From assembly GCA_027604665.1 (NCBI GenBank), contig JADGIZ010000098.1:1-26982 (forward strand): DNA of 26,982 nt. The letters run 5' to 3'. The notes under the pieces were generated by a model. That model did no database searches. It worked only from the letters and a program-made list of their open reading frames with translations, and was not told the DNA's origin. The translations under genes were made by a program, and so were the position numbers. Numbering within the stretch: position 1 is the first letter of the stretch; each line of letters begins with the position of its first letter. The DNA comes from Polyrhizophydium stewartii. Its lineage: Eukaryota > Chytridiomycota > Chytridiomycetes > Rhizophydiales. Of the stretch, positions 1 through 22,109 are shown piece after piece.

Positions 1-213
1 CTTGAAGCACCGGCGGCCCCCCCATCTTCGATGGGGGGCCGGTCGCGGACGCTAGTAGGAGCCTTTACAAGGCTCCGGTCGCTCCGTGACGGGCCCCCTG
101 TAGGGGCCCCCCGCCCCTCAAGGGGGCGGGCCTCCTACGAGGCCTTGGCCTCGGGACCCCTTAAGGGTCCATCAGGAGGCTAGTCACGACCGCTCCGCTG
201 CGCTCAACTGGGA
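1..213. repeat. Composite GC-rich hairpin cluster
   Basis: A run of perfect or near-perfect GC hairpins in tandem: C-run/ATCTTCGAT/G-run near 21-42, GGAGCCTTTACAAGGCTCC at 58-76, then GGGCCCC/GGGGCCC, CCGCCCC/GGGGCGG and GGACCCCTTAAGGGTCC. The same hairpins recur at about 12.7 kb, 17.35 kb and 22.0 kb in other orders. No coding potential. It resembles the mobile hairpin or GC-cluster elements known from fungal mitochondria; mobility is inferred. The left end is cut by the window. Confidence 0.85.
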
Positions 214-298
214 ACATAGGAAATGATTGTTTGTAAAAACTAATTAGATTTTCGACTGATTGTGATCAATCATCGTATCATAATAATTATTTAGGCTA

Positions 299-445
299 AT
301 GTTGAAAAAGTATTACTTATATCGACCTAAATATTCTAAAAAGATTATCAATAGAACTAAAAGCAACGAAGTTGCTCTTTGTCCAATTGGGAGGCATTCA
401 GAAAATGCTAAAACTGATCGACAAAGTCAATTGGACCCAATCTGA
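299..445 (+). CDS. Hypothetical 48-codon ORF, basic
   Basis: ATG to TGA, 48 residues starting MLKKYYLYRPKYSKK. It is lysine, arginine and tyrosine rich, with A/T-ending codons like the intron ORFs downstream. A stretch near the end (PIGRHSENAKT) faintly recalls the G-x-HSEETK motif of endonuclease-associated NUMOD regions, which would make it a remnant of a GIY-YIG type ORF. That is weak. A hairpin (AGCAACGAAGTTGCT) lies inside it. It may also be noise in AT-rich DNA. Confidence 0.25.
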   Translation: MLKKYYLYRPKYSKKIINRTKSNEVALCPIGRHSENAKTDRQSQLDPI

Positions 446-635
446 GATTGGTTAATTTCAAGAATCCTAGATCTCACGATCTTCCGCTAGGAATCTATCG
501 ACAAAGTCAAGTTACGTCGCAGCGGAGCTGCTCAGTAACTGAATTACGGTAGTTTACTTTGCCAAATTGGACAATTACAAATTGACGACTTCGTCTTGGA
601 CCATCAACATCGTAGATTCCTTTGGCAATTCGTAA

Positions 636-668
636 GGACGTCGCTGAACGCGAGCTCACGCGCCGTCC
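636..668. repeat. GGACG...CGTCC hairpin element, copy 1
   Basis: Bounded by GGACG and CGTCC, with GTCGCTGAACGCGAGC inside, and flanked by ATTCGTAA on the left and GAT on the right. The same layout recurs at 892-914, 4999-5031, 6567-6604 and, inverted, 17953-17985. The inverted copy differs from this one by a single base inside. Confidence 0.8.
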
Positions 669-891
669 GATGAATTGCTTAATTCTAGTGATTTGAATTA
701 TATTCGTAAATCTTTTATCATTTTCTAGTCATTTATGGCAACATTCGTGAAAACAGTCAATTCATCTCAATTCGATTTTGTTTGATCTAAAATTGAATCT
801 AGAAAAGACCGTCGGTATTTCAATTATTCCTTATTGTATATCGCTACAGACTGGTTCACTTATGGGTGGAGATATTTGTAAAAATTCGGAA

Positions 892-914
892 GGACGTCGC
901 TGAACGCGCCGTCC
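892..914. repeat. GGACG...CGTCC hairpin element, copy 2 (short form)
   Basis: A short member of the family: GGACGTCGCTGAACGCG followed by CCGTCC. It lacks the GAGCTCACG segment present in copy 1, as if an internal hairpin had been lost or not yet gained. Confidence 0.75.
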
Positions 915-1050
915 GATTCGGTTTTGCCAAATTGGATAGAATGAGCAATCTTAGATTGCCTATTCGTTTACCCGAATTTGATTACATCATAATCTGCTTA
1001 ATGTACAGTCGACAATCAAATGATCTCGCACATAGTGCGACTCAATAAAA

Positions 1051-2883
1051 TTGAGGTTTATTGAAGGGGGCATACATTATGTATGCTTTTTTGATTGTGG
1101 GTTTTTTGGTCATGGATGGCCGTTTTCATCCGTGAAGTTGAATTTCTTACAAACTGTAAGCGGGGAACCTCTGTTAAACCTAATAGATACTATTATTGTA
1201 AGTAGCTTATATATTTGCTCCGTTTTAGTAGAAATACTATTATCAGCCACCTACGGTGGCTGCATCGAATATTCACATTCGATGACTGGAGGTAATCTGC
1301 AAGTAACCAACGTGCTTAGCTCACTAGTAGGAACTTCAGAGACCATACGTTTGTCAACCTAGTTTCATCACAATCATAGATTGTTTAGGGCGCTTCAAGC
1401 GCCCGCCCCTTTAAGGGGCTTATTCTACTTATTAGCATAGACTGTTATTTTTAATCAAAGTAACCAACTTCGTTGGTGGATTCGATCTATTACTTCTAAA
1501 GCTTCGTCCGGATCACCTGATCCTTCTTGGAATTCATGGCTAGCGGGTTTAATAGATGGTGATGGTTGTTTTTTATTAAGTAAAGCTGGTTATGCTAGTT
1601 TTGAAATAACTATGGGTCTTTTGGATGAACGTTGTCTTAATATTATTAAACAACGATATGGTGGTGCTTTAAAACCTAAAAGCGGTAATAAAGCTATTCG
1701 TTATAGATTACATCATCAAATTGGTTTATTAGCTCTTATTAATGATGTTAAAGATCATATTCGCAATCCTATTCGTATTCATCAATTAACCCGTATTTGC
1801 TTACATTATAAGATTCCATTTCATCCTAACATTGACAATTCATCTAACAATCGGCCCTTGGGGCGATTGCCCGCCTACGCGGTCAATCTAGACAAGATTG
1901 ACGGATGGTTTGCAGGTTTTTTTGATAGTGATGGTACTGTTACTTTTAACTCTACCAATAATCAATTAGCTATTTCTGTTAGCCAAAAAACTCCTTATTT
2001 ACTTATTCTTTTTCAACAATTTTTGGGTGGTCATATTTATCCTGATCGTGGTCTTTATCCTAGTTTTAAATGGTATATTACTTCTAAAGCTTCGTCCGGA
2101 TCACCTGATCCTTCTTGGAATTCATGGCTAGCGGGTTTAATAGATGGTGATGGTTGTTTTTTATTAAGTAAAGCTGGTTATGCTAGTTTTGAAATAACTA
2201 TGGGTCTTTTGGATGAACGTTGTCTTAATATTATTAAACAACGATATGGTGGTGCTTTAAAACCTAAAAGCGGTAATAAAGCTATTCGTTATAGATTACA
2301 TCATCAAATTGGTTTATTAGCTCTTATTAATGATGTTAAAGATCATATTCGCAATCCTATTCGTATTCATCAATTAACCCGTATTTGCTTACATTATAAG
2401 ATTCCATTTCATCCTAACATTGACAATTCATCTAACAATCGGCCCTTGGGGCGATTGCCCGCCTACGCGGTCAATCTAGACAAGATTGACGGATGGTTTG
2501 CAGGTTTTTTTGATAGTGATGGTACTGTTACTTTTAACTCTACCAATAATCAATTAGCTATTTCTGTTAGCCAAAAAACTCCTTATTTACTTATTCTTTT
2601 TCAACAATTTTTGGGTGGTCATATTTATCCTGATCGTGGTCTTTATCCTAGTTTTAAATGGTATATTACAGATAAAGAATCTATTTTGAAATTTATTGAT
2701 TATATTAAATGTTATCCATCTCGTTCTGCTAAAGCTAATAGATTACATCTTATTCCTCGATATTATGAGTTAAAAGCTTTAAAAGCTCATTTAGCTCCTC
2801 AAAATTCGATTTTAAATAAAGCTTGGACTAATTGGTTAGAGGCTTGGTCAAGCTTTTCTAGTCTTGATGATAATAATGGTTGA
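1051..2883 (+). CDS. LAGLIDADG homing endonuclease ORF of cox1 intron 1, internally duplicated
   Basis: Frame open from about 1024 to the TGA at 2881-2883 when TAG is leucine (in-frame TAG at 1360 and 1438). The start is not defined: such ORFs are often translated as a fusion with the upstream exon, and the first ATG inside the core is at 1612. Domains: a first LAGLIDADG helix (WLAGLIDGDG, 1537-1566) and a second (GFFDSDG, about 1909-1935), each followed by a repeat domain. The whole block is then repeated exactly (helices near 2125 and 2491), after which comes the C-terminal tail (RLHLIPRYYELKALKAHLA) typical of two-motif mitochondrial enzymes. Normal family members have two motifs and this one has four. 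A GC-rich insertion (NNRPLGRLPAYAVN) sits between the helices in both copies. The aspartates of the active-site helices are present. Function inferred: cleavage at the intronless cox1 site and possibly maturase help in splicing. Confidence 0.75.
1102..1113 (+). CDS. cox1: Candidate end of the cox1 exon before intron 1 (FFGH)
   Basis: The codons TTT TTT GGT CAT read F-F-G-H, the residues expected just before PEVY of cox1. The position lies about 45 bases before the P element of intron 1, which is the right geometry for a 5' splice site. Against it, the residues upstream (IHYVCFFDCG) do not match the expected LYQHLFW, and part of them comes from a perfect hairpin (GCATACATTATGTATGC). It could be a microexon following a further intron, or coincidence. 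Confidence 0.3.
1488..2075 (+). repeat. 588-bp tandem repeat, unit 1
   Basis: 1488-2075 appears identical by eye to 2076-2663, and the first six bases (TATTAC) occur a third time at 2664-2669. The unit is 196 codons, so frame is kept. See the finding on this duplication. Confidence 0.9.
2076..2663 (+). repeat. 588-bp tandem repeat, unit 2
   Basis: Second copy of the unit. It is followed by unique sequence coding for the endonuclease C-terminus, so the repeat junction falls inside the ORF after residues KWYI. Confidence 0.9.
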
Positions 2884-2912
2884 AGATATGGTCCAACCTA
2901 TTCTATAGGCTA

Positions 2913-3005
2913 CATCCTGAAGTTTATATCTTAATTTTACCAGCTTTTGGTATTGTTTCTCATTTATTATCTCGTTTTTCCTAGAAACCTATTTTTGGTC
3001 AATGT
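2913..3005 (+). CDS. cox1: cox1 exon (HPEVY to FGQC)
   Basis: Encodes 31 residues of cytochrome c oxidase subunit 1, from HPEVYILILPAFG to KPIFGQC. Cox1 is the catalytic core of respiratory complex IV in the inner mitochondrial membrane; this segment carries the CuB histidine and the tyrosine cross-linked to it (H and Y of HPEVY). An in-frame TAG at 2982-2984 falls between FS and KP, where relatives usually have a basic or variable residue, so it supports TAG being sense rather than leucine in particular. The frame continues without a TAA or TGA into the intron 2 ORF. The 3' end at TGT is inferred from joining to the microexon GGTATGGT. Confidence 0.9.
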
Positions 3006-4010
3006 GGCCTATATCGAACTATATGCAAAGAGTTAGAAAATATAATCTCTACTACTCCATTTCAAAATATTAAAACGGCTATGCCGGTGAGCATTTTAGT
3101 AAAAATGTAGGATTATCGATCTTTAGATCAATCTAATAATTCGCAAATAACCAACGTACCGGTAATAATACCGAAATCCAAAAGCATAGAAATCTTGCTC
3201 GGGTTAAGCATACTAGTAGGAATTTCAGAGGCCATACGTTCGAGATTATTCGGTCAATATTTCATTCGTTCTTTTGTAAGTAATTCCCCAAACGTCCCAT
3301 CAAAACCTGAAGAAATAATATTTTATCAATGGTTAGCTGGCTATATTGATGGTGATGGTTATTTCGCTTTAAGTAAAAAAGGTTATGCTAGTTTAGAAAT
3401 CACTACGCAAATAAGAGATAAACGTACTTTATATTTAATTAAAGACAAATTTGGTGGATCTCTAAAAGTGAGACCTGCTTCAGCAGGTCTGAGATATAGA
3501 TAGCACCATAAAATAGGTTTATTAAAATTAATTAATTCTGTAAATGGAAAGATTAGAAACCCTATTAGACTTCTTCAATTAAATGAAATATGTAAACTCT
3601 ATAATATTGATTTAATTTATCCTTCACCTTTAACATATTATAATGGTTGGTTATCTGGGTTTATTGATGCAGATGGTAGTATTTATTATAATTTAGAATA
3701 TAGTCAACTTTTTATCACTGCAACAAATAATAATAAATTATAGTAGGATCCTTTAATTTCATTATATGGTGGTAAAATATATTTAACTAACAGTAGTGGG
3801 AAATCTTTTAATTATATTATTAATAAAAAAGAAGATATTTTTCAATTTTTAGATTATCTAGATTCTTGTCCATTAAGATCCGCTAAATTACATAGAGTTA
3901 AATTAATAAAAACTTATTTTACATTAAGAGAAATGAAAGCTCATTTAGCTAGTCCTAATAGTATAAAAGGCAAATTATGGGCTAATTTTATTTCTAAATG
4001 GGAAAGTTGA
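3006..4010 (+). CDS. LAGLIDADG homing endonuclease, fused in frame to the upstream cox1 exon
   Basis: The frame runs from the cox1 exon through the intron core to the TGA at 4008-4010, with in-frame TAG at 3108, 3501, 3741 and 3744. Two LAGLIDADG helices: WLAGYIDGDG (about 3333-3362) and WLSGFIDADG (about 3650-3679). The protein is a clear relative of the intron 1 enzyme: RYR-TAG-HHKIGLL aligns with RYRLHHQIGLL, which fixes TAG as leucine, and the double TAG in KL-TAG-TAG-DPL lies in a leucine-rich stretch. The C-terminus (REMKAHLASPNS) is intact. It is presumably released from the fusion by proteolysis, as in other fungal mitochondria. Unlike the intron 1 copy it has no duplication and few GC inserts, so it looks functional. 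Confidence 0.85.
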
Positions 4011-4089
4011 AGTTCATAAATTATAGGGACTTCGGCTACGCACTGCGGAATTGATCGTTTAATAAAGAAATGGTCCATTTTAGTACATT
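3006..4089 (+). mobile_element. cox1 group I intron 2 with LAGLIDADG ORF
   Basis: Q-like (AATTCGCAAATAACC, about 3139), R (TTCAGAGGCCATACG, about 3222-3236) and S (AAGAAATGGTCC, 4065-4076) are visible, and the complementary changes in R and S (GGCC with GGTCC) keep P7 paired. The ORF lies between R and S. The boundaries are slippery by two bases because the intron and the next exon both begin with GG; with a 5' exon ending in T the intron would end in T rather than G. Confidence 0.75.
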
Positions 4090-4701: not shown

Positions 4702-4740
4702 AATCGTGGAGGTGAACGCACCGCGGGCACGTCCACCTCG
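4702..4740. repeat. GC hairpin element inside the intron 3 ORF
   Basis: Palindrome-like block centred on CCGCGG with arms GTGGAGGTG and CACCTC. Its reverse complement occurs at 16361-16405. It is an in-frame insertion that adds INRGGERTAGTSTS before the first LAGLIDADG helix. Confidence 0.85.
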
Positions 4741-4998: not shown

Positions 4999-5031
4999 GG
5001 ACGTCGCTTAGTGCGAGCTAACGCGCCGTCC
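4999..5031. repeat. GGACG...CGTCC hairpin element, copy 3
   Basis: Inserted after TATTCGTTA and before GAT in the endonuclease ORF. The family alignment (FFNTYSLG, then F-A-I-L-K) shows it interrupts a formerly continuous coding sequence and changes the frame. Confidence 0.8.
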
Positions 5032-5059
5032 GATTTGCAATATTAAAGCAAAAAGATTG

Positions 5060-5183
5060 GAGCGGCTGGTGTGGCGTAGGCGAAGGCCGGCCACTCCGCG
5101 ACCGGGGCCCCCCTTAGGGGGGCCCCCCCGGATCCTTCAGATCCGGGCCTCAGAAGAGCTTCTGAGGCGACGTCGCTAGCGAT
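5060..5183 (+). repeat. Composite GC hairpin cluster in the intron 3 ORF
   Basis: Order: a module with GGTGTGGCGTAGGCGAAGG and CCACTCCGCGACCGG, a G/C-run hairpin around CTTAGG, GGATCCTTCAGATCC, CCTCAGAAGAGCTTCTGAGG, and the end CGACGTCGC. The first and last modules are shared with the inverted cluster at 17330-17448, but the middle hairpins differ. Confidence 0.85.
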
Positions 5184-5299
5184 GGATTTTAGTACCGCTA
5201 TTGATCGACAAAGTCGATGAAGATCATAAAACTGTTGATGGTTTAGCTAAAATTCAAATCATTGTTTCAAGAATGAACGATAGATCAAGCAAATAAATG

Positions 5300-5449
5300 C
5301 TACGCCATGTTATCAATTGGTTTATTAGGCTTTATTGTTTGGTCCCATCATATGTTTAGTGTAGGTTAGGATGTAGATACTCGTGCCTATTTCACTTCAG
5401 CTACTATAATTATAGCTTTACCTACAGGTATAAAAATATTCTCATGGTT
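5300..5449 (+). CDS. cox1: cox1 exon (YAMLSIG to IFSW)
   Basis: Encodes 49 full codons, [19 protein letters not shown]...PTGIKIFSW. It holds the two adjacent CuB histidines (SHHM) and the conserved K-channel lysine (TGIK). The in-frame TAG at 5367-5369 lies in VG-x-DVDTR, where cox1 has leucine, so this is a direct demonstration of TAG as leucine. TCA is used for serine in LSIG and FSW, excluding the Scenedesmus code in which TCA is stop. It ends with TT of a TTA codon completed by A at 6046. Confidence 0.95.
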
Positions 5450-6045
5450 ATTATTTTCCTTCAGCAAGAAATCTAGTCTGACCAAAGTGATGAAATTGAG
5501 CGGCTGCGCAATTGGGCGATCAAAGAGGGCGTCACGAGCGATTGCTTTGGATATGGTGATTAAAGAGGCACACTAAAGTGTGCTACGTCGCAGCCGAGAT
5601 CGTGCAAATTGATAAGGTGGCAAACTCGAGAGAACTTTCAGAGGAAGAATGACGGCCATCACCCTTATTTGTTTTAATGGACTAACCCCTCAATCCAAAT
5701 GTGTAACCGGAATGAATCTGAAACAATCGTCGAACTAAGGAAACGCTCGAAAGGGCGAAGCACGCCCCTCAAAGGAGCGGGCGCTTTCATGCGCCCTATT
5801 TGATGCTGCATCAATTTTAGTAGATGTTTTCATAAAAGCGTAGAGACTAGACGCCACAGGATTATCTAAGTGGAGGAATTGACACGATTCCGACCTTCAC
5901 AAATCATGCTGATTGGAGCGACTCCTAGCGGGTTGATTGAGGAAAACCCCGCCTCTAGTGGGAGTTTCGATATTCCCCATATGAAGTCCCAAGGAATAGT
6001 CCAAAATAAGCTAGCTGTATCTGAGATGATTAAAGGCTTATTATG
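5450..6045 (+). mobile_element. cox1 group I intron 4, no ORF
   Basis: About 600 bases with R (GTAGAGACTAGACG, 5840-5853) and S (AAGGAATAGTCC, 5991-6002). It ends in G at 6045, just before AGCAACT, and splicing TGGTT to AGCAACT restores W-L-A-T-I-Y-G-G. No ORF of family size. Several GC hairpins are inserted in peripheral parts (GGCACACTAAAGTGTGC near 5567, CGCCCCTCAAAGGAGCGGGCG near 5763, GAGCGACTCCTAGCGG near 5928), while the core is kept. Without this splice a TGA (6044-6046) would fall in frame, so no TGA-tryptophan assumption is needed. Confidence 0.85.
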
Positions 6046-6181
<136 letters not shown>

Positions 6182-6515
6182 AAAAGTTTAATATGTGTCG
6201 TGTATAAACGTTGCTTGTAAAAATTAAGCTACTAACGTGATCTAGGTCAAATTGCACTCCCCTCCCCCTATCGGGGGGGGTCTCTTTTGAATTAACTAGT
6301 TGATCGCGATCTCCAATCGCTTTAGAAGTTGGTTTGGCTAACGGTGAAAGGTTCTATCATAACCCAATACCGTGGAAGGCTTTGTATTTGCCTCTCCGTA
6401 GAGACTAAACGCAACGAGTAAAACAACAGACTAGTTCTCTAGCTCTAGGAACTACTTTGACGCTGGGTTTTACTAAGATATAGTCCAATTCCAATCGTGA
6501 GATTGGTTAACCTGA

Positions 6516-7477
6516 ATGACTTATATAGAGTGTTTGATTCCTTTTGTTCAAATTAATAATTCGTTAGGACGACCCCCGTACGGGGGGGAGCTTACGCGCC
6601 GTCCGATTGCTCATTATACAGATCCCATTGCTTCTAAAGGACAAATTAATATGTCCCATTCAAAAAGAGCTGGTATTTATCTCTTTACTAATAATGATAA
6701 TTCGAAACAATATGTCGGCTTGGCCAAAGATTAGTCTAGAAGATTTAATGAATATTTCATGAAGTCCTATCTAATTAGACAATCTAGCAGAGGTTCTGTG
6801 ATCTGCAGGGCATAGCTTTCTTACGGTTAGAATAATTTTAGTTTCACCATATTGGAATATTGCGACGAGGATAATTTAGTTGATAGAGAACAATACTATC
6901 TAGATAATTATGTCCTCGAGTATAATATTAATAGAGTTTCTTCAATTAGATATAGTGTCAACTCTGAGGGCATCAACAAAGGTGCTAGTAATCCTAGCTT
7001 TGGTAAATTGGGGAGGATTCCTTCAGATATGGTAAATATCATACTGATGAGTAGAAAGCCAAATGGTCTGAAGTTAGAGGTTATGGTCCTTATTATGTAT
7101 TTAATTAGGTTACCAAAGAGGAATCTGTATTTCATAGTATGAACCAGTTGGTCTCTAAATTGGGTTATACTAGTTCAAGATTAAATGAATCTATTGATAA
7201 TTACATCTTGGATAACACTTATTTTATATCTATGAACCCTATAGATCCTTCTAAATTAAATTATCCTAATGTCAAAGTAGTAAAAAAATTAAACCCCTCC
7301 TTTGGAAGCATATCTGTTGATTTATTTGATATAAACATGAACTACATAAGATCTTATCCTTCTATTAGTCAATTAGCTAATGATATAAATATTAATAGAA
7401 ACAGAGTATCAGATAGTTTAAAAAGTGGTAGAATCCTCGCTGGAAAATACTTTGTCAAATATTCAAAAGATCCGTTG
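6516..7477 (+). pseudogene. GIY-YIG homing endonuclease with one frame change
   Basis: Catalytic domain in frame 3 from about 6651 (MSHSKRAGIYLFTNNDN), with GIY, YVG, the RF arginine and the catalytic glutamate in DREQYYLDNY. Three in-frame TAGs (6732, 6813, 6828) fall at KD-L-SRRF, RA-L-LSYG and YG-L-NNF, each a conserved leucine. After SFGKLGRIPSD the frame must change by one base near 7029-7031 to reach GKYHTDE-x-KAKWSE, the usual continuation, then a NUMOD1-like region (SVDLFDINMNYIRSY...SGRILAGKYFVKYS). From 7031 the frame continues through the splice site into cox1. The upstream stretch 6516-6650 contains a GGACG element and may not be native. Either a one-base loss (or sequencing error) or a programmed shift; I favour the former. 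Confidence 0.75.
6567..6604. repeat. GGACG...CGTCC hairpin element, copy 4 (nested insert)
   Basis: The same shell as copies 1 and 3 (ATTCGTTAGGACG on the left, ACGCGCCGTCCGATT on the right), but the left interior is replaced by a CCCCCGTACGGGGG hairpin. It sits in the N-terminal part of the GIY-YIG reading frame. Confidence 0.8.
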
Positions 7478-7897
7478 ACATATTATGTTATAGGCCATTT
7501 TCATTTCGTTTTATCTATGGGTGCAGTATTTGCTATATTTGGTGGTTTCTATTATTGGATAGGTAAAATTACTGGTTATCAATATAATGAAAAATTCGGT
7601 TTAGTTCATTTTTGGATTTTCATGATTGCAGTTAATATTGTATTCTTACCTATGCATTTCTTAGGTTTAGCTGGTTTCCCAAGACGTTATTCTGATTATG
7701 CTGATGGTTATCTTAGTTGGAATGTCTATATGTCTTATGGTTCTATCTTAACTCTATTATCTATTTTATTATTTCTTTATATTGTATCTAATCAATTATT
7801 TATTAATAAAAAATATGTATTATCTTCAAATAACTTTAAATTCATTTCTTCCATTTATCTGTCAAGCGACCTCGGGCGAAGCCCGGTCGCTGAGTGA
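7478..7897 (+). CDS. cox1: cox1 3' exon (TYYV to C-terminus)
   Basis: TYYVIGHFHFVLSMG carries the axial histidines of haem a3 and haem a (HFH). Then FPMHFLGLAGFPRRYSDY is diagnostic of cox1, here LPMHFLGLAGFPRRYSDYAD, followed by the last membrane helix (SILTLLSILLFLYIVSNQL). The glycine in VIGHFHF replaces the usual alanine. The last ten codons before the TGA at 7895-7897 come from a GC hairpin element (AGCGACC...GGTCGCT), so the natural C-terminus has been replaced or extended by the insertion. Confidence 0.95.
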   Translation, partial: TYYVIGHFHFVLSMGAVFAIFGGFYYWIGKITGYQYNEKFGLVHFWIFMIAVNIVFLPMHFLGLAGFPRRYSDYADGYLSWNVYMSYGSILTLLSILLFLYIVSNQLFINKKYVLSSNNFKFISSIYLSSDLGRSPVAE

Positions 7898-7969
7898 CCG
7901 ATCTTCGATCACCGCCCCTCTAGGGGGCGGGCCTAACCGGCGACGTCACGGCCGCGACGGAGTCGCTCC
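7865..7969. repeat. Composite GC hairpin cluster at the cox1 3' end
   Basis: Starts with a nested hairpin (GCGACC, GGGC-GAA-GCCC, GGTCGC), followed by CCGATCTTCGATC, CCGCCCCTCTAGGGGGCGGG, GCGACGTC and a minimal GCGACGGAGTCGC. It supplies the cox1 stop codon. Confidence 0.85.
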
Positions 7970-8565
7970 AATTCGATTTAGCGTACTTTTACTACCCACC
8001 CTTTTATTAATAGATGGTCTATAGAGGGGATTTAGCAATATGCAGCGGTGATACAACGAAGACTAATCTTCCGATTGACGGAGCAGCGTCTATTGATTGG
8101 GAGCGACTCCTAGCGGTTGTTACGCTACTTCATATTTGGTTAATATAGGGGGAGGGTTGGGAGAACAGAAACCAATTTGATGATTTGCAAAATGTCGTAG
8201 CTGCGATCGAGGTCTTTATTAGAACAGCTTCCAAATCTCGGAGCGACTCCTAGCGGATTTGTGAGCGTATAAATAACTAGACAGAACCTGATCAGGATGC
8301 GGTTTGGAGCGACTCCGTCGCGGACTCAATTTGCGGTTTTCTGAGCGACCGATCTTCGATCACCGCCCCTCAAGGGGCGGGCCTCAGAAGAGCTTCTGAG
8401 GCGACGTCGCGACTCAATTTGCGATTTTCATAAAATGGGTTTCGAGCGGCTCCGCTGCGTGCCATCTTTGCTTTATTCTATATTTATTAGATGGTTTATT
8501 GAGCGTAGCTCCGGTGCGTCAAATCACTAGACATGACCTCGCTCGGGACGATGTCCCAATAATAA
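7970..8565. other. Gene-less AT-rich stretch with minimal GC hairpins
   Basis: No ORF of note. It holds minimal shells such as GCGACTCCGTCGC (8309-8321), GAGCGACTCCTAGCGG (near 8099 and 8242), a composite cluster at 8343-8413, and recurring TAATAGATGGT or TTAGATGGT strings (8008, 8486) that are also seen at 11854 and 12791. I see no promoter or terminator that I could defend. Confidence 0.6.
8343..8413 (+). repeat. Composite GC hairpin cluster
   Basis: GAGCGACC, GATCTTCGATC, CCGCCCCTCAAGGGGCGGG, CCTCAGAAGAGCTTCTGAGG, then GCGACGTCGCGAC. The last two modules are identical to those at 5150, 12752 and 22072. Confidence 0.85.
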
Positions 8566-8760: not shown

Positions 8761-9330
8761 AGGTTGACCTCACCATATACAATTCTTTACATCTGACTTC
8801 ATATATTATTAGTAGGAGTTTTACCTACTTCGCCCTAGATTAATAACAAAAGATGGTTGGTTACTTAAAGTAATATGTATTATAAGGTAGCTTTGTAGGG
8901 TCTAATAAAAAATAGCTTCTACTATAAGATCTACACAAATTGCTTTTAGAAGAGGTAGACTACATGATTTACCTTCTAAATAAAATGTGCTTATTACTAG
9001 AAATTCTACCAGGGTTGATGTATAACTAATAAAAGAGCTACAACTAATAGAATAGCTAAATAAAACATGTTAGCAGATCAATTTACCACGAACATTTGAA
9101 GTTAAAGGTAAGAATATTACCAATTAAGAGATCTAGATAATGTTAAGAAGTATGAGTATACTAAATTTCAACATATTTCATAAGATAATTCTATCTGGTA
9201 CAATCCTTTAATTAACCTATCTATTATATAGTAATTTCAATTATGTATAAACATATAGTTCATCTCCCTTAAAAAGTATCTAGTGGGATGAGAAGAAGAG
9301 TTTAATAAGATGGATCTAGTATATTTTCAG

Positions 9331-9370
9331 TAGAATCACCGCTAGGCGGGGATTCGTTTACCCGAATCTA
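9331..9370 (+). repeat. 40-bp direct repeat with GC hairpin, copy A
   Basis: TAGAATCACCGCTAGGCGGG followed by a hairpin with GATTCG-TTTACC-CGAATC. Identical to 9535-9574. Confidence 0.9.
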
Positions 9371-9534
9371 CCTTTTAGTATATACAAGCTATGGAAATTG
9401 AAATAAAACCTAAGGATGCAAAAGAGTTATGGGTTTAATACTTAGAATCTCCCATATTTTATTAGATCAACTATGAAACGTTATTTAGGATTCTTCAGAG
9501 ACTTCATCACATCCAATTAGTAAGCTATTTTTAA

Positions 9535-9574
9535 TAGAATCACCGCTAGGCGGGGATTCGTTTACCCGAATCTA
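9535..9574 (+). repeat. 40-bp direct repeat with GC hairpin, copy B
   Basis: Identical to copy A. The flanks of both copies share further diverged similarity downstream, which points to duplication of a larger unit rather than independent insertion only. Confidence 0.9.
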
Positions 9575-11240
9575 ACCACTATATCTCAATTGAAGGTAGT
9601 TTAGTTTATTCAGGTGTTTATATAAGGGGATACATGCTATATTAAACCAATTATTTATCGTAGCTAAGATATCCAATTAACAGACTAGACTAAGGATGCA
9701 AAAGAGTTATGGGAAAACACTTAGAATTATCTATCTAAAGAGAGAACTTGGTTGGGGTTCTCTAGCAATGTTCCTGTTTCATTTAGTAGAATCTCTATTT
9801 AACCTATCTATTATAAGTCACTTTCAATAAATATATTACAATTAGGAAGCTCAATATACCACTTCTATAATTAAGAGATACAGGTTGTATTTAACCAATT
9901 TCTTCTAATTCACTACTCTAACCTAATTATCTGGCTCTACTTAGTATTTGGAATAATAGATTTACATACGATAACTTTATCACGTATCTTCCTCTCTATT
10001 ATAATCTTTTCAACTATGGAATATATCTTAGGACATCTACTACTTTCTAAACCAAAATAAGGTGTTTATCATACCTCTATTAGAGGGTATACAAATCTTA
10101 ATAGATAAGTTCTATTCATCTACATCAAAAATCTCATATAAAAGTCAATTAAATAGGGTGTAAGTCTCAGGGGGTCTAGAGACATTATTAAAAAGATACC
10201 TATAATGTAGAGGCCGTATTCTAAATGTTTATATAATAAAGATATTGAGAGAATATGCATGTTGAATGGGTATACCTGTTTTGGTACATCTTAATCTATA
10301 GTTGGGTTCCTATAAGATACACCTACATTCTGATTTATAGTCTTAATAAACCAAGACTTCTCTATAATAATCTTTTATTAATTTCAGCCTAAATATTCTT
10401 ATTAAAGAAAGAGCCAGTAAGGGTTATATTATAAGGAAATGAGAGAGAAAAGAAGCCAAGGAAATAATAAAGTATTTCAATAGGTTTGGATGGTAGATAT
10501 CAATAGCAAGGTATTCTGTTACTCATCAATTTAATACTAATTCTTCTAGTAAGTCCACATCTCATTACCCCAAACCTGTATAGGGTCCCTTGAGGACCCG
10601 TACCTAAAATAGAGGAAATTGAGAAAATAATAATGATTTATCCTAAAGAAGCTGACGTGATCTTATACAGTATCGGATCTCTATTGGTGATGTCTACCCC
10701 CTTCTTTTAAGGATTTATCCAGCTAGACTTAAGAAGATCCTATCCAATAATTGTATTAGTACATCCTCTTTTCACCCTATTGTATTTATTTGTTTACTTC
10801 AATAGTTTTTCACCTGATCTGTCTTACTGTTTATCCTGACTTCTAATTGTCTATCAGATTCCATCTAAATTACTATTCCAATTAGTAATAGATATGTAAG
10901 GGATGGTTCCAAAGATAATTGATAGGAGTTGAGGATGACTTATAGAGGAGGCCTTGGCCGGGATATCTCATTGTCGCATAGCTCCCTGATATATTATGTA
11001 ACTAGCTAGATGAAATAATAGACCAATATATAGAGATTAATTGTACAAGCAAATTTCTAGTTGTAAAACATTATATTCTAACCTGGTATGCAAAATCATC
11101 CTTCAAATATCAATGACATAATTCAATAATAAGCCAAATAAGGTCTATCCAAAACCAAACATCTATAAAGTCAAGAATTTCAAAAGTAAGATAGGATGAT
11201 AGAAATTATTAGGGAAGATTATACAACCCTCAAGATACAA

Positions 11241-11534: not shown

Positions 11535-11599
11535 TTCGGGGGGGTTCACTACAAAATAATCGAGGATTTGGTCGCGGCCCCCTTTTCTGGGTTTTCCCG

Positions 11600-11628
11600 G
11601 AGCGACCGCCCTACGGGCTACGTCGCGA
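11600..11628. repeat. Nested GC hairpin (two-level)
   Basis: GAGCGAC, then CGCCCTACGGGC as an inner hairpin, then TACGTCGC. It shows the outer GCGAC/GTCGC shell with one hairpin in its loop. Compare 16730-16764, which has the inverted inner hairpin. Confidence 0.8.
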
Positions 11629-11770
11629 TTTTTTAGGCATACATTCGTTATTTTCTGGGATATATAGTCTACACCTGGGAGCGATTAGGAGAGCCTGTTG
11701 GGATCTCACCAAATCTTATATTTAGCACCCTCATTTTAGTAATTAGATGATGTTTCTAGGGGGGGCTTAC

Positions 11771-11835: not shown

Positions 11836-12411
11836 GATCTCTTTTTCGTAATTAGATGGTCCAAATATTAGGCAATTTGGAGCGACTCCGTCGCGGCTGG
11901 TAATTTGGGGATATTCTTACTTCATCGTCGACCAGAGCATCATTGCTTGGACCCTCAATTAGATTGAATCTCCCTGAGTTTCTAAGTAGATTAATCAGAA
12001 TGAGCTATTAAATGGAAGATTTCCCACACTTCAGCAACCGGTAGCGGAAAGCGGCTAATTAAGATCTAGGGTAAGCTCTCATCCAAAATTAATTGTGATA
12101 CAGCATGGAGCTTCAAAGGATGGCTGTTCATTTGATTTTGAGGTGCATCCAGCTCCCGCTCATTTATCATAGACATCACCTATATTGGAAAATATTGTGC
12201 ACTTCAGAGTCGGAACAACAATCACTACTAGGGCGATCGACAATGATCTCCTGAGTGTGCGGGGTCGACAGCTAGCCCAAAATTGATGTTAATTTAATTG
12301 TAAAACCCATGGTGATTTCCCTATATCTGTCATCTCATCTGTATTTCACGCTTTGCTATATAAACCATCTAATTACTAATAAATCATAGAATAAGAATTG
12401 GCCAATTATAG

Positions 12412-12481
12412 CCGCGACCGCCCGTAGGGCACCGGTGCTTAAGCACCGGGCCGATTTCATGCTTCAGAGGCGACGTCGCGA
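12412..12481 (+). repeat. Composite GC hairpin cluster
   Basis: GCGACC, GCCCGTAGGGC, CCGGTGCTTAAGCACCGG, a short AT spacer, a degenerate half of the CAGAAG/CTTCTG module (only CTTCAGAGG remains), then GCGACGTCGC. The half module suggests partial loss. Confidence 0.8.
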
Positions 12482-12703: not shown

Positions 12704-12782
12704 GAGCGACCGGAGCCTTTACTAGGCTCCCCCGGATCCTTCAGATCCGGGCCTCAGAAGAGCTTCTGAGGCGACGTTGCGA
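12704..12782 (+). repeat. Composite GC hairpin cluster
   Basis: GAGCGACC, GGAGCCTTTACTAGGCTCC, CCGGATCCTTCAGATCCGG, CCTCAGAAGAGCTTCTGAGG, GCGACGTTGC. It shares modules with 1-213, 5060-5183 and 21973-22109 in a new combination. Confidence 0.85.
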
Positions 12783-16170: not shown

Positions 16171-16174
16171 TAAT

Positions 16175-16456
16175 TTAGCACCTTGTAGTGGCATGCAAAA
16201 TAATAGATCTTGGAGCGGCATCCGCCGCTCGATTTAGCCTAAACAATAAGAAGACGTAAGATATTTGATAGAACTGAGGTCCATATAGTATAAATAACAC
16301 AAAAGGCAAATAGGCCAAATGACTGAATGATTGTGGGTTTATTAACAGGATACCATCAGAAATCGTGGAGGTGGACGTGCCCGCGGTGCGTTCACCTCCA
16401 CGATTAATCGCTAATCTATTTCGCTTATATATATAATTAATCAATAAACCAAACAA
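16175..16456 (-). CDS. Hypothetical 93-codon ORF carrying two GC elements
   Basis: ATG at 16456 (MFGLLINYIYKRNRLA), then the in-frame peptide INRGGERTAGTSTST from the 16361-16405 element, then a hydrophobic stretch (LPFVLFILYGPQFYQISYVF) and a C-terminus from a second hairpin (GAGCGGCATCCGCCGCTC, near 16212). Without the inserts it would be a small membrane protein of about 60 residues. No family recognised. It is notable that the same element is read in the same frame here and in the intron 3 endonuclease. Confidence 0.3.
   Translation of the reverse strand: MFGLLINYIYKRNRLAINRGGERTAGTSTSTISDGILLINPQSFSHLAYLPFVLFILYGPQFYQISYVFLLFRLNRAADAAPRSIILHATTRC
16361..16405. repeat. GC hairpin element, inverted copy of 4702-4740
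   Basis: AATCGTGGAGGTGGACGTGC, CCGCGG, and the complementary arm CACCTCCACGATT. This copy has a more perfect palindrome (both arms with GTGGAGGTG) than the copy in intron 3, which lacks the last few bases of one arm. Confidence 0.9.
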
Positions 16457-16679: not shown

Positions 16680-16729
16680 GCGAAGCGAATCAATTAGTAC
16701 ACTCGATAAATATGATGATTTAGTCTTTT

Positions 16730-16764
16730 GAGCGACGTAGCCCGTAGGGCGGTCGCTCCGCGAC
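16730..16764. repeat. Nested GC hairpin (two-level)
   Basis: GAGCGAC, GTA, inner hairpin GCCCGTAGGGC, GGTCGCTC. Outer and inner stems are both perfect. Its inner hairpin is the one seen at 12419-12430. Confidence 0.85.
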
Positions 16765-16789
16765 TGCGTGATTATTTCTTCTGTTCTTC

Positions 16790-17329: not shown

Positions 17330-17448
17330 ATCGCTAGCGACGTCGCCTCAGAAGCTCTTCTGAGGCCCGCCCCTTGAGGGGCGGGGGCCCCCATCTTCGA
17401 TGGGGGCCGGTCGCGGAGTGGCCGGCCTTCGCCTACGCCACACCAGCT
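17330..17448 (-). repeat. Composite GC hairpin cluster, inverted
   Basis: Read on the minus strand: CTGGTGTGGCGTAGGCGAAGG, CCACTCCGCGACCGG, CCCCCATCGAAGATGGGGG, CCCGCCCCTCAAGGGGCGGG, CCTCAGAAGAGCTTCTGAGG, GCGACGTCGCTAGCGAT. The outer modules equal those of 5060-5183, while the middle hairpins are others. Confidence 0.9.
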
Positions 17449-17449
17449 A

Positions 17450-19130
17450 ACCAAGAATAGTTCTTTTTTAATTGATCTTAAGGTTTATAATAATGAAGTT
17501 TATGAAATAAACTGGAATCGCTGGATATGAGACCTCAAGAAGATCTTATGTAAGAATCTCTCTTCTGGGTTATAAGTTAGGATATATTAAATTAGATTGG
17601 ATTATACTGATTATAAAGAATATAGGATCTTCTTCATTATTGATTATTTGTGTTTCTTTAGATAAAATATTGTATCTGTCATGTAAGAAGATAGGATTGA
17701 CCCGAATAAGACATTATCTGTAGACATTTTATTGCTTTGATTTTACTCCTAATCAATGATTTATCGGTATCAACTCATTAGCAATTTCTCTCTACCACCT
17801 ATAGAAGAGTTAAAGGATAAGAATAGGTAAGTGAAGATTGGTAATCGTATTAGCAGCTAAAAATATTATAATCAGGGCGATCTACATATTACCTTTATTC
17901 TAACTTGACTGCTGAATCTTCTATTACCAATAGCTCTTTATTTCCGCCCAACGGACGGCGCGTAAGCTCGCGTTCAGCGACGTCCTTACGAATCATGTTG
18001 AAATTAGGTTAATCTCGTCCTGTCTCACCTTAATTGTTTCTTATCTACTTCTTACTAATTTGGCTACATCCTAGATGGATCTGATTCAAAGATTGTTACG
18101 GCTGACGCGATGGATGGCTCATCACCACAATATTAGCGGGTGGTTATAAAGAATGATTTATAGTAGTTGTTATACGTAATTAATTCTACGTAATATTACA
18201 CAAACTAACGGTAACCAAGCAACACCAGAATCAATCTCTCCTAGTACTTAATATGCAATAGGTGGTTATATTCATTATTCTCATTAGTCCCAATTATACA
18301 AGATGGCGTAGAATATTCAAATAGATCGATTAGAAATTGAGGTTATCTATTAAGAAAGCTCGATCGTCTACAGCTTATAAGTTAGTACTTAACAATGATC
18401 ACCAGTCCAGTTCTATTTAGGGTTATCTCATCATGATTTCTGGCCTTGAATCTATTAGATTACCTATAATTAATCAGTTATTTATGTTGCAGAACCTTAA
18501 AAGAAGGATAAAAACATTTCAAATCAGATAATGAACCAAAGATTAATATTAAAGAACATAAATTAGACATGCTTATGATTTATAAATAGTATAAGATATC
18601 TTGGTCTACTGATAAGATATACAACATAAAGGAAGGTAGAGGGTAAGTCTATAGCAATTTCCTATTTGTTATAGAGACAAAGAACGCGAGATATTATGGG
18701 TAAAATCTAAACTATTATATTCCATCCCCCCCCTCAACAGATGGGTGTTGGTTTATCCAATTTAATAGTACAGCTGTCATCTAGGTTATCTTCTTGATTC
18801 TATATGAAACATCCTGGACTTTCACCTCAATTAAGGGTGACTTCGTAATGGACTAGATTAGGTAATTGAACAGATCGACTTTGTCGATTAGCTAGATAGA
18901 ATCGGACGGAGTCCTTACGAGTTACGTATTAATTTTAGATTTGTCTTTCCCCTAAGTTAATGAGCAAAGGGAACCTGAGCGGATGAATTAGGATAATTTC
19001 TGTACCATTAAAAACATAGGAACCTTTGGTTGTCTTATTAGAATATGTGTATTTGTAAGACCTCTTTTAATTAATTAGTCTTCATTGGTGAGCCACCGAA
19101 GGTGGCCTAAATAGTCTATATATTACATCA
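17450..19130. other. Gene-less AT-rich stretch
   Basis: No gene recognised on either strand, allowing TAG as leucine. It holds the inverted GGACG element at 17953-17985 and the hairpins GATCGACTTTGTCGATT near 18872 and GCCACCGAAGGTGGC near 19092. Confidence 0.5.
17953..17985 (-). repeat. GGACG...CGTCC hairpin element, copy 5 (inverted)
   Basis: On the minus strand it reads ATTCGTAAGGACGTCGCTGA and so on, and it is the same as copy 1 apart from one base. Flanks on both sides beyond ATTCGTAA and CGTCCG differ, so the element, not a larger block, was copied. Confidence 0.85.
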
Positions 19131-19131
19131 A

Positions 19132-19329
19132 ATGGCTTTTATTTCTGATCTTACATTATCTCTTATTATTGGTATTTTACATATTTTAGTTTATCATCTG
19201 TACCCCTTATTTCTAATTGATAAAATCGAGCGCTCCAGCGCTGGAAGCAACTATTTGGAGCGACTCCTAGCGGCAATTGTAGATACTGAATCTTTGAGTG
19301 CCTTTGATTTACTCCTTTATATCAGCTAA
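19132..19329 (+). CDS. Hypothetical 65-codon ORF, hydrophobic N-terminus
   Basis: ATG start, MAFISDLTLSLIIGILHILV then YHLYPLFLIDK: one likely membrane helix with T-ending codons. The middle (IERSSAGSNYLERLLA) is from two small GC hairpins (GAGCGCTCCAGCGC and GAGCGACTCCTAGCGG). The end (IVDTESLSAFDLLLYIS) may be native. No family recognised. Confidence 0.35.
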   Translation: MAFISDLTLSLIIGILHILVYHLYPLFLIDKIERSSAGSNYLERLLAAIVDTESLSAFDLLLYIS

Positions 19330-20699
19330 TAGTGTCTTATATGAAAATAACTTAAGTTGTTGATCGATCGAAGATCGATGTAGTAGAACAAGCGACGTAG
19401 TTGCTCTAAACAACTCGTGGAATTCAGCTCAAGGAAATTATTTATCTATTTATTCTTACTGTGCGTCACCCCCTCCATTAAACCTATTTATCCATCTTTC
19501 TCCTAATAGACTCCATCTAATCTAAAAAAGGCGCAGTGAATTGAGAGGATTTTGCCGTGACGTCGCCTCCTAGCGGCCAAATCTGTAGTTATTGATTTAA
19601 GCGATGGTCTAGGCGAGCCACCATCTAATCATTCAGAGATATGTCGCGGCGTCGCCGCTCCCAAATAATGCAAAATTGCTTCAACTAATTCCAAATTGAG
19701 TAATTCTAAATAATCATATATAACTAAGACATAAATCTAGATTCAGCTCTATATACTATAAAATGAATAGTGAGCCGCGACGGAGTCGCTCCCAATATAT
19801 TAATAAATTCAACAAGAATGAAAATCGGTCTGGTGAATATATTCTAGATTTGTCACCGCTTCGCTCCCCTATAAACAAAAGCGGCGTCGCTTGGCGCGAG
19901 CTGACGCGACGCGATCTAATCTGATAAACAACCGCGACGGAGTCGCTCCAATTCTAGGAATATTCATCCGCGACGGAGTCGCTCCAATTCAATGTCATAT
20001 TCGACCTTCGGATCTGATTCTTCTGTATATGAGGTAACCCGCTCAATAGACTATCAAATGACAATTTCTGGGGGCGGAGCCACCCACTTACGGCGCTGGC
20101 TACGGACATGATTGATTGTGGATTGATTTCGCATGATCATTTATCTGAATTATCTAGCTATCAACTTACTTTAGACTACACCAAACTATTATTTGCATAA
20201 AGTTAACCACTTAAGTTTCCTTATACTTGTCTCTCTAAACCAAGTTATTTATACGACCGAAGCTTTAATAAATATTTATTTCTAAGAAGTTCATCAACTT
20301 TGTCCATTTCGAGTTTGACCTGATTTTAAGCTCCATACGGAGCTGTTGACCATTACAGAGTCTTAATTAATTAAAACTCTTTCATTACTACATAACCCAA
20401 TATCATCAATTGATTAGATTATTATAGAGTCTACTTAAGCGGCTACGCGATCCGATACCATAATTCTGGTTTCGCACTTTATTCAATTTTTCTTCAATTG
20501 TGTATGACATGTCGTTCAATTCATTCGGCCTTATGCCTTCATTTCTCTCACTTATCTATATATTAATCACCGTTACACTCAAGCATACTTTCGTTCCACT
20601 GCACGTTCAATCGCCACTCTGGCTATTTAGCCTTCTTCTTGTAGATGTTTTCTAGGAGTCATTCTCAATTCTTCGAATTCCTCTATAAAACCAAGCCTC
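19330..20699. other. Gene-less stretch rich in minimal GC hairpins
   Basis: Three exact copies of GCGACGGAGTCGC (19777-19789, 19934-19946, 19970-19982), GACGTCGCCTCCTAGCGG near 19559, and AGCGGCGTCGCTTGGCGCGA near 19874. No gene seen. Confidence 0.55.
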
Positions 20700-20880
20700 A
20701 GGCTCCCCTCCCTCTCCTAGTTATAAGAGAATAGGGACGACCGAGTGGAACGAGGGAGGGATGTCTCACGAGCGGTCAACCCCCCATCTTCTCTGGGGGG
20801 TTGCCGCCCTCACTCATTCCTTAGTCATTCGCTCCGGGCGCCATGCCAACTGGCTGGCGCTCTATTCCATCAACGATCAA
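20700..20880. repeat. GC-rich structured block
   Basis: CTCCCCTCCCTC pairs with GAGGGAGGGAT over a loop that contains TCTCCTAGTTATAAGAGA. Then come AACCCCCCATCTTCTCTGGG-GGGTT and GGCGCCATGCCAACTGGCTG-GCGC. No coding sequence. It is different from the common modules except for the CCCCCCATCTTC hairpin. Confidence 0.6.
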
Positions 20881-21183
20881 ATTGAAAACCCCAACTAAAA
20901 GCTGAAGGATTAACCTTTTCTGTAAACATGGAAAAAGAAGAAAAAAACAAATAAAGGGAAAGTAAACAAACCAGCACAGCTGGGTGATGATCCAAAGCAT
21001 CTAAGAATTGAAGGCTAATACAATTGAGCTTTTCCTGATGTTTAAAATGAAATGTTGTAACTTTAAGGATGAAGTAGTAACATCAATTTCTCACTATATA
21101 GTATTTCTAATCAACACGTAGGGCCTTCGGCCCGGTTGGTTTAGCAAGCTCAGTATCTCTTTCTTCCGGCTCAGAGGCAGTAA
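20880..21183. other. Gene-less spacer
   Basis: About 300 bases, purine-rich on the plus strand around 20930-20965 (AAAAAGAAGAAAAAAACAAA). GGGCCTTCGGCCC near 21121 is a perfect hairpin. Nothing else. Confidence 0.4.
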
Positions 21184-21537
21184 TTGATCTCTCTATATTT
21201 TATCCGTACACTAGGAAATGTCCATTTCCTGATTATTCAACCTCTAATTCAATGGATCATAGATAGGTTTGTAGCCTTTAGATGTTCCCCCCCCCGATCC
21301 CCGATCGGGGGCTTAACCTTACCTATGAGAGTCTCTGATATTTGTCAGATTTATTTGTATTATTTATTCTCTTTTCCAAATAGGCTAAATTATTATTGCT
21401 CTTATGTTAGAACAGCCATCGGGTTAAAGATCCATCCTGTTAGAAATTATCACATGAGACTTAATAACAGAGAAATCTTAGAGTTGTAGTACCTTTACGA
21501 TTCTACTAGCTATCATCGGACCCATAAAGTGAAATAA
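21184..21537 (+). CDS. Hypothetical 117-codon ORF (TAG as leucine)
   Basis: Opens after a TAA, with a possible TTG start at 21184, and ends at the TAA 21535-21537 if the TAG at 21487 is leucine. The middle carries a C-run/G-run hairpin (residues CSPPRSPIGG). The remainder (SDICQIYLYYLFSFPNRLNY, CSYVRTAIGLKIHPVRNYHM, NNREILELLYLYDSTSYHRT) is polar and tyrosine rich, like intron-encoded or reverse-transcriptase-like proteins, but I see no diagnostic motif. The lack of an ATG start argues for a fragment or an ORF fused to an upstream exon. Confidence 0.35.
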
Positions 21538-21539
21538 TC

Positions 21540-21970
21540 GTGGTCCTCAGGCGGCTTTGCCGCCCTTCTAGGATCGGACCACTCAAGAAGCTAAAGGAAA
21601 AAGAAACAAAAAATCGAAAAACAAGTAACTCGCCTGTATTGTATAGATGAATCAGTAAAATATCAGCATTATGTAGGCTAATTTAAAGGAATAAGAAAGA
21701 CATTAACCAATTTAATAAAGACTCGAAGCTGAAATTTAATATAATCACCCGGTTTACCGCCACTAAATGATTACCTGTCCCTAGATAAAAAAGAATGGTT
21801 AGAAATATGACACTGAGGTAATATAAAACAGCTTCTTAAGAAGCCGTGGAAATTAGAGTTACAAATAAAGAACAAATCTCGATTAAGGTTAATAACCCAA
21901 GTCCAGCGTAAGGGTAGAGATCTAGCTGTAAATAACACACTAAGCAGGTGTCATAAAGAATTTAATAAAA
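21540..21970. other. Gene-less stretch
   Basis: GTGGTCC and GGACCAC (21541-21580) enclose GGCGGCTTTGCCGCC, a nested hairpin of the double-hairpin type. The rest is AT-rich and without a recognisable gene. Confidence 0.5.
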
Positions 21971-21972
21971 CT

Positions 21973-22109
21973 GAGCGGCGGACGTGACGTAGGAGCCTTT
22001 ACAAGGCTCCGGTCACTCCGCGACCGGCCCCCCATCGAAGATGGGGGGGCCGCCGGTGCTTCAAGCACCGGGCCTCAGAAGAGCTTCTGAGGCGACGTCG
22101 CGGACGCGA
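21973..22109 (+). repeat. Composite GC hairpin cluster
   Basis: GAGCGGCGGACGTGACGTA, GGAGCCTTTACAAGGCTCC, GGTCACTCCGCGACCGG, CCCCCCATCGAAGATGGGGG, CCGGTGCTTCAAGCACCGG, CCTCAGAAGAGCTTCTGAGG, GCGACGTCGCGG. It is one of the richest clusters; every hairpin has a copy elsewhere in the window. Confidence 0.9.

Follow-up and report, generated by a model that had tools for sequence, protein, structure and literature searches.

GC-rich hairpin units, from simple shells to three-arm composites, in chytrid-like mitochondrial DNA

Introduction

The GC clusters of Saccharomyces (GC42 and its relatives) are short, dispersed GC-rich palindromes in AT-rich mitochondrial DNA (mtDNA) that bear flanking AG or ACT direct repeats. 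As described in 2015, they have a conserved 13-nt end followed by many continuations (76 sequence types) and are subject to merger and shuffling (PMC4478555, partial text). The double-hairpin elements of Allomyces are hairpin-forming sequences in mtDNA, thought to be mobile and without flanking duplication (PMC2800124, partial text). Outside the fungi, the organelle palindromes of Volvox carteri, described in 2009, are numerous, run in either orientation, lie between genes as well as in introns, are often inserted into one another, and have loops that are mostly TAAA or TTTA (PMC2670323, partial text). The Byp elements of Magnusiomyces capitatus are blocks inserted in mitochondrial reading frames (PMC5009743, partial text). 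Ribosomes skip an insert of this type, and its host protein is made all the same. Here we analyse a stretch of 26,982 bases (the window; contig JADGIZ010000098.1 of the Polyrhizophydium stewartii assembly GCA_027604665.1, C98 below), which contains a family of GC-rich hairpin units built on a GCGAC...GTCGC shell and found throughout the parent assembly.

These units appear to belong to the broad category that includes yeast GC clusters and double-hairpin elements. Like the former, they are short, dispersed GC-rich palindromes in AT-rich DNA with one conserved end, many continuations, and merger and shuffling; because flanking direct repeats of the yeast type (AG or ACT target duplications) were not found as a rule, we do not class them as GC clusters. 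Like the latter, they are hairpin-forming units in what is probably early-fungal mtDNA, but double-hairpin elements are described as two neighbouring hairpins, whereas the simplest unit here is one hairpin and the composites have three or more within a closing shell stem. Nested forms in both orientations recall Volvox, a green alga; in contrast to its palindromes with TAAA/TTTA loops, for which the available part of the source mentions no slot grammar, the arms of the present units are largely slot-specific, the genome is chytrid-like, and the nesting may or may not reflect insertion of one unit into another. The counterpart of Byp elements is a single insertion in a second cox1 copy, which shifts the frame and leads to a TGA on read-through. 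A shell closing a three-arm junction with slot-specific arms was not met in the available text of the GC-cluster literature (PMC4478555), nor, in the available parts of the compared papers, was a series from lone shell to such composites in one genome. Slot-specific arms are not the subject of the literature matched, as judged by titles and the openings of abstracts, and we make no claim that they are absent from print.

By comparing copies within the window and across the assembly, we propose, with a probability of roughly 0.55, that the units are non-autonomous mobile GC-rich palindromic elements, which would spread as whole units and have their arms swapped by strand jumping.

Results

Shell and arms

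Two contigs (C1 and C2) were read whole, together with positions 1-30000 of a third (C3) and the window, in all 219,566 letters including 4,056 N; to these were added 80 short stretches around listed matches of three patterns, plus a few gene loci. Family counts cover 88 records (271,456 letters), some of them overlapping.

The simplest units are two bare shells, S (GGAGCGACTCCGTCGCGG) and Y (GGAGCGACTCCTAGCGG). One-arm units (34 copies, whose inner hairpin comes in nine sequence variants) hold C, a hairpin and TAC within the shell, and larger units hold C, arm 1, arm 2, arm 3 and GAC within the same shell. The simple, one-arm and three-arm forms share this shell and make up one hierarchical family, as an earlier note made from the letters of the window had proposed. 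In 53 copies, the base at -5 from GCGAC is T in 47, and those at -3, -2 and -1 are G, G and A in 48, 48 and 49.

Folding of the 76 shells with the right end of the larger units gave exactly three arms in 53, where the 5-bp shell is predicted to close a four-way junction. Among these 53, slot 1 is filled by 18 different hairpins, slot 2 by hairpin D, G or L in 52 copies, and slot 3 by hairpin K in 50, the last count being biased because the motifs by which the short stretches were chosen include the third arm and the right end (slots 1 and 2 lay outside the patterns). Hairpin kinds common in one slot never occur in another; one R hairpin stands in slot 1. The slot-1 hairpins M and c are each found with the slot-2 hairpins G and L, all four combinations being present (M-G 13, M-L 3, c-G 1, c-L 1), while D is restricted in its partners, which together suggests that arms have been exchanged, but not freely. 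Outside the 53, D also follows the GCCACTCTCTAGAGTGGC hairpin (L071, L090, L102). The shuffling of modules that the earlier note had read from the window is supported by these combinations, with arm sets that are largely slot-specific.

Dispersal of whole units

Genome-wide, the exact 13-mer GCGACTCCGTCGC occurs 93 times against 3 for its reversed control, the near-palindrome GCCTCAGAAGAGCTTCTGAGGC (at most two mismatches) at about 102 places (204 strand counts) against 0, the right-end motif GAGGCGACGTCGC 122 times against 2, and TTGGAGCGACTCCKWSGCGG within one mismatch 82 times against 0. In the window itself, GCGACTCCGTCGC is present six times (0 in each of 50 dinucleotide shuffles) and GGAGCGACTCC ten times (0 in 100 shuffles).

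A module was counted as alone when no other listed module lay within 30 bp and both 12-bp flanks had at most 50% GC (C1, C2, the 30 kb of C3, and the window). By this measure, simple shells often stand alone (S in 13 of 21 copies, Y in 10 of 10), the right end GGCGACGTCGC does so in 2 of 20 copies, and the 18 kinds of inner hairpin in 1 of 114, a set from which two hairpin kinds of the GGACG family (10 copies, 0 alone) were kept out. Another listed module lies within 30 bp of 87 of the 114, and the remaining 26 have GC-rich flanks. With one copy in 114 alone, inner hairpins give little sign of being independent insertions. Among the 53 three-arm junctions there are 23 distinct sequences, of which the most frequent are present in 9, 8, 5 and 4 identical copies, and the mean identity of the right flanks of the commonest is 0.25-0.27, as in unrelated DNA. 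Identical composites in unrelated flanks indicate that whole units, composite and simple, spread as blocks.

As a rule, the units appear to lack a fixed target duplication. Of 41 simple shells, 9 have direct repeats of 3 bp or more at their flanks, where shuffled flanks would give 13.5, and 14 have 2-bp repeats (12.3 expected). Queries made by joining the flanks of GC islands, with two boundary choices per island (1124 queries), returned 9 matches, none of which we read as a clean empty site outside other repeats.

Units in cox1 and ribosomal RNA

An occupied and an empty site can be compared between two diverged cox1 copies within the one assembly. The second copy, on C4, agrees with that of the window at 68 of 88 residues of the first exon, with 45 of 72 base differences at third codon positions; a later exon has 27 of 42 residues in common, with 12, 6 and 13 differences by codon position, so that constraint there looks weaker. 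In the C4 exon VYAIFAGF is followed by a 41-base unit, and this in turn by ATTATTGGG... (YYWVGQITGYQ minus one T, in the first tyrosine codon), whereas the window has FAIFGGFYYWIGKITGYQ uninterrupted at the equivalent position. The insert is identical to the two-level unit of the window (16730-16770) and to three further copies; all five are preceded by TT and followed by ATT. The insert shows no target duplication, the frame is lost, and reading on meets a TGA (by eye). The C4 copy may be dead. By this comparison, the two-level unit is shown to sit in cox1 sequence as one block.

In C1, a composite of about 105 bases lies in large-subunit (LSU) rRNA, 8 bases after ...AAAGAGTGAGTAAAATCTCA, which, by comparison with the bacterial sequence, we take to be the conserved H44 sequence; the LSU covariance alignment omits the stretch that bears it (194 bases against 50 model positions). 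A second GC-rich unit stands in the LSU rRNA match at C1 66274-66329, near model positions 880-960, where the alignment is weak.

How copies differ

Where copies have flanks of 16 bases or more in common, they show 185 kinds of local difference that alter length, 47 of them pure insertions or deletions (indels) and 35 of these non-redundant. Microhomology of at least 3 bp is found at 25 of the 35 and of at least 5 bp at 16, as against means of 2.6 (maximum 8) and 0.4 for an imperfectly matched control in which cuts of equal length were placed at random in 37 GC islands (500 trials). About five independent indels have at least 25 identical bases on both sides, three with microhomology (10, 6 and 3 bp) and two without, among the latter the cleanest case of a hairpin present in one copy and absent from another. 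Microhomology lengths range from 0 to 13, which speaks against a target duplication of fixed size, and microhomology at length changes suggests strand jumping or short-repeat recombination.

Stems are also well paired. Following the same GGA before the stem and TCC loop, the next strand pairs perfectly at 54 of 109 sites (a count that retains overlapping loci) and has one mismatch at 4; the perfectly paired stems are GCGAC (34), GCGGC (12), GCAGC (5) and GCAAC (3), and the remaining sites are mostly Y or unrelated. Arm K has 70 exact copies, 4 fully compensated variants and 8 one-sided variants (G.A, T.C or T.T), with G.T in none. Strand jumping within and between hairpins would account for both arm exchange and perfect pairing; an alternative for the pairing is selection on structure.

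Units in the window

Units of the family located in the window are listed in Table 1. The six 13-mers of the earlier note are exact (8309 and 11882 on the forward strand; 7954, 19777, 19934 and 19970 as reverse complement), and its two-level forms are present with the extents tabulated. Its larger clusters at 5060, 7865, 8343, 12412, 12704, 17330 (inverted) and 21973 are likewise all there, the copy at 12412 being degenerate; those at 5060 and 17330 have the outer arm, shell and last hairpin in common and differ in the two middle hairpins, as it had said. The composite at the contig start and a GGACG...CGTCC shell family are additional to that list.

Table 1. Hairpin units and one empty site located in the window
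Feature	Positions	Strand	Details	
Simple shell S	8304..8323	+	TTGGAGCGACTCCGTCGCGG; alone, AT-rich flanks	
Simple shell S	11877..11896	+	alone	
Simple shell S	7952..7971	-	adjoins damaged composite	
Simple shell S	19775..19794	-	TGGGAG variant, alone	
Simple shell S	19932..19951	-	alone	
Simple shell S	19968..19987	-	alone; right flank GGATGAATATTC found again at copy L108	
Simple shell Y	5915..5931	+	GGAGCGACTCCTAGCGG; alone	
Simple shell Y	8100..8116	+	alone	
Simple shell Y	8240..8256	+	alone	
Simple shell Y	19257..19273	+	alone	
One-arm form	11602..11626	+	shell GCGAC, then C (GCCC TAC GGGC) TAC, then GTCGC	
Two-level unit, 41 bp	16730..16770	+	same as copy in second cox1 of C4; 5 copies in sequence examined	
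Composite	5059..5183	+	outer GTGGC arm and three-arm junction; core 5098-5176; arms N, D, K	
Composite	8343..8411	+	three-arm junction; core 8345-8410; arms GATC hairpin, L, K	
Composite	12704..12782	+	three-arm junction; core 12706-12780; arms A, D, K; right shell strand GTTGC	
Composite	17330..17448	-	outer GTGGC arm and three-arm junction; core 17337-17414; arms M, L, K	
Composite	21972..22110	+	outer GTGAC arm with hairpin A and three-arm junction; core 22020-22101; arms M, G, K	
Degenerate composite	12411..12480	+	GATTTCATGCTTCAGA in place of third arm	
Damaged composite	7861..7951	-	right after last cox1 exon	
Large composite	1..206	-	truncated by contig end	
Empty site in window's own cox1	7547..7552	+	TTC^TAT (GGF^YYW); counterpart of filled C4 site	

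DNA folding of five composites gave z scores from -4.4 to -7.9, with 0 of 200 shuffles folding equally well. Values for 7860-7974 (z -3.1, 0/200), 12409-12481 (z -2.6, 1/200) and 16728-16768 (z -2.1, 9/200) are weaker, and the smallest forms are not significant alone (8303-8324, z -1.5, 17/200; 11596-11632, z -0.5, 55/200). The cox1 frame (window 7475-7896) enters the damaged composite that follows the last exon and terminates at a TGA inside it.

Other GC-rich repeats share the window. The GGACG...CGTCC family, with varied inner hairpins, lies at 636-669, 893-915, 4999-5035, 6567-6605, 17944-17985 and 18904-18920, and its simplest form, GGACTCCGTCC, has a CTCCG core in common with S (by eye). 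Double hairpins around GAATCACCGC...GGGGATTC and ATTCGTTTACCCGAAT (9322-9376, 9526-9577 and 25975-26020; also C1 25107), in which the first loop varies among copies, are nearer the classic double-hairpin element. A further repeated GC element, CGAGGTGGACGTGCCCGCGGTGCGTTCACCTCCACG, occurs at 4705-4740 and 16364-16399 and in C1 at 40116, 41395 and 65298, with length variants of 5-6 bases; an open frame that has a LAGLIDADG domain contains one of the copies.

Genomic setting

The window is an entire contig of an assembly of 690 contigs and 12.86 Mb. The window contains four cox1 exon pieces (2907-3002, 5301-5492, 6044-6184 and 7478-7747), with LAGLIDADG and GIY-YIG reading frames nearby. Three of the four contain an in-frame TAG, one of them at a strictly expected leucine, and TAG evidently is a leucine codon in this gene. 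Among the best cox1 matches are, by name, Spizellomyces (74%), Synchytrium microbalum (76%), Rhizophydium (72%) and Blyttiomyces (74%). They cover 67-72% of a joined query that mixed the two cox1 copies, in a comparison that scored the 7999 best candidates. Because its cox1 exons use TAG for leucine and their best named matches are chytrids, the window is a piece of a chytrid-like mitochondrial genome, which agrees with the setting of the earlier note among the mitochondrial hairpin elements of early fungi.

At least 36 contigs among the matches listed bear elements, and the 30 of known length total 1,069,783 bases; the mitochondrial genome may thus exceed 1 Mb, if the element-bearing contigs form one molecule. 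A mitochondrial genome of at least 1.07 Mb would be unusual in size among fungi. Matches to mitochondrial genes or rRNA lie on C1, C4, C17, C29, C42, C98, C116, C133, C285 and C611, and weakly on C61. The four contigs read have a GC content of 35-38%, and GC-rich islands make up 1,681 of the window's 26,982 bases. ARAGORN found no tRNA genes in the window or in 20 loci (L018-L037) of C1, C2 and C3, and a tRNA-like origin of the units was rejected on this ground. Exact element motifs had no match in viral contigs and other genome contigs, sets from which records near the window's genome may be excluded.

Second copies of cox1 and cox3 lie on C4; C42 and C133 overlap in cob, C133 with in-frame stops. 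Such diverged second copies or fragments (cox1, cox3, cob and LSU rRNA, on C1, C4, C42 and C133) may be foreign, relics, or from a second organism. We lean against a mixed-species assembly because an AT-rich LSU rRNA shares C1 with a fragment of another, different one; as C1 contains 4,056 N, a false join in it is possible.

Repeats mark the contigs in other ways. An exact 594-base tandem duplication lies inside a LAGLIDADG reading frame of the window (1488-2669), and similar near-exact tandem duplications in C1 and C2 are possibly assembly products; the ends of C2 (1-77 and 79018-79094) are 77-base inverted repeats. Several contigs (for example C20, C29, C35, C42, C68, C191 and C242) end within or beside composites, and assembly errors at repeats are possible. 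Masked self-comparison returned chiefly tandem duplications, overlapping loci and other repeats.

Discussion

We envisage a basic unit consisting of the shell GGA-GCGAC...GTCGC-GG or its Y variant. The simplest shell has only the 3-base loop TCC, and larger ones enclose one arm, or three arms able to form a four-way junction (a cloverleaf or cruciform). Such units would enter AT-rich sites without a fixed target duplication, preferring TT at the left, by one of two possible routes: repair by copying of breaks made by homing endonucleases, or reverse transcription. While a unit is copied, strands would jump between units at shared short stems and junctions, replacing an arm by one of the same slot, adding or dropping arms, and restoring perfect palindromes.

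Among other ways in which such a family could arise, ordinary ectopic recombination or gene conversion among dispersed, ready-made composites would yield mosaics with no special copying step. Copies are numerous and identical enough for it, some exchanged segments cover two arms, and mosaics have long identical stretches on either side (61 and 47 bases for one swapped arm); but many indels rest on just 3-7 bp of identity, short for homologous recombination, and the arrival of units at new AT-rich sites is left unexplained. We regard it as possible, if on the unlikely side. Spread through RNA, in which transcribed hairpins are ligated or template-switched and then reverse transcribed into new sites, was proposed by Wu and Hao for yeast GC clusters (PMC4478555, partial text). 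It would agree with the lack of a fixed target duplication, a reverse-transcriptase domain match with an in-frame TAG on the element-bearing contig C31, and group II intron matches on C1 and C2. Yet among the 12 variants of arm K there are G.A, T.C and T.T mismatches and full compensation, while G.T wobble is absent, a pattern that hardly suggests constraint at the RNA level, and we hold this route to be a tentative option with a modest chance of being right.

The earlier note had instead favoured stepwise growth, small hairpins being mobile alone and nesting by insertion into the loops of others. The use of one shell by simple, one-arm and three-arm forms would suit such growth, as would the Volvox palindromes described as inserted into one another (PMC2670323, partial text) and a 27-bp hairpin piece cleanly present or absent between otherwise identical composites. 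With inner hairpins alone in 1 of 114 copies, arms largely slot-specific, microhomology frequent at length changes (25 of 35, with the control's imperfect match in mind) and identical composites dispersed as blocks, we find it improbable. Clusters behave as indivisible blocks only in part, however: identical composites lie in unrelated flanks and the two-level unit sits in a cox1 exon as one block, but arms differ between otherwise identical units. That the composites are functional structures of the host under selection (RNA processing signals, replication origins or recombination sites) would fit the perfect pairing in several stem types, the composite that ends the cox1 frame and the one in LSU rRNA; since many copies are identical in unrelated flanks, and copies interrupt a cox1 copy and an rRNA, we give this very little credence.

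Several observations weigh against spread of whole units with arms swapped by strand jumping. Not all shells are three-armed: 17 of 76 have one arm and 6 have two (in 8 of these 23 the dot-brackets likewise show three hairpins, placed under an additional shell pair or stem, two with a weak 2-bp third), and a looser GCGAC...GTCGC scan of 70 well-formed distinct stretches gave one arm in 33, two in 10, three in 25, five in 1 and six in 1. Slots are not free, D occurring among the 53 only with A (12) or N (10), and the c-G and c-L combinations each rest on one copy. The cleanest pair of copies, L050 and L062, differs by the 27-bp hairpin piece between 70 and 105 identical flanking bases without microhomology, and so fits hairpin insertion or excision better; 6 of the 35 indels likewise have none. 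The microhomology control is unevenly matched in that pairs were found through shared 14-mers in repeat-rich DNA, which favours end repeats, and counts are not independent, the copies being related by descent. Direct repeats of 5 bp flank 5 of 41 shells against 1.1 expected.

A bolder form of the proposal would see in these units four-way-junction elements with cassette slots, in which shell and junction replicate and arms are swapped at the junction, a combinatorial class of non-autonomous mobile element. Since copies in a cox1 exon and in LSU rRNA near H44 hint at it, some units might even be removed from RNA or tolerated in it. We put this forward as a speculation, more likely wrong than right.

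Here one genome offers a series from a 13-base hairpin to multi-arm junctions, in well over 100 copies, with slot-specific parts and exact duplicates. Should the element-bearing contigs prove to be one mitochondrial genome, its size of at least 1.07 Mb would stand out among fungi. Such a series makes models of spread (clean insertion, recombination, strand jumping and RNA copying) testable by sequence comparison, and arm swaps between copies would be an example of how tiny selfish elements can diversify.

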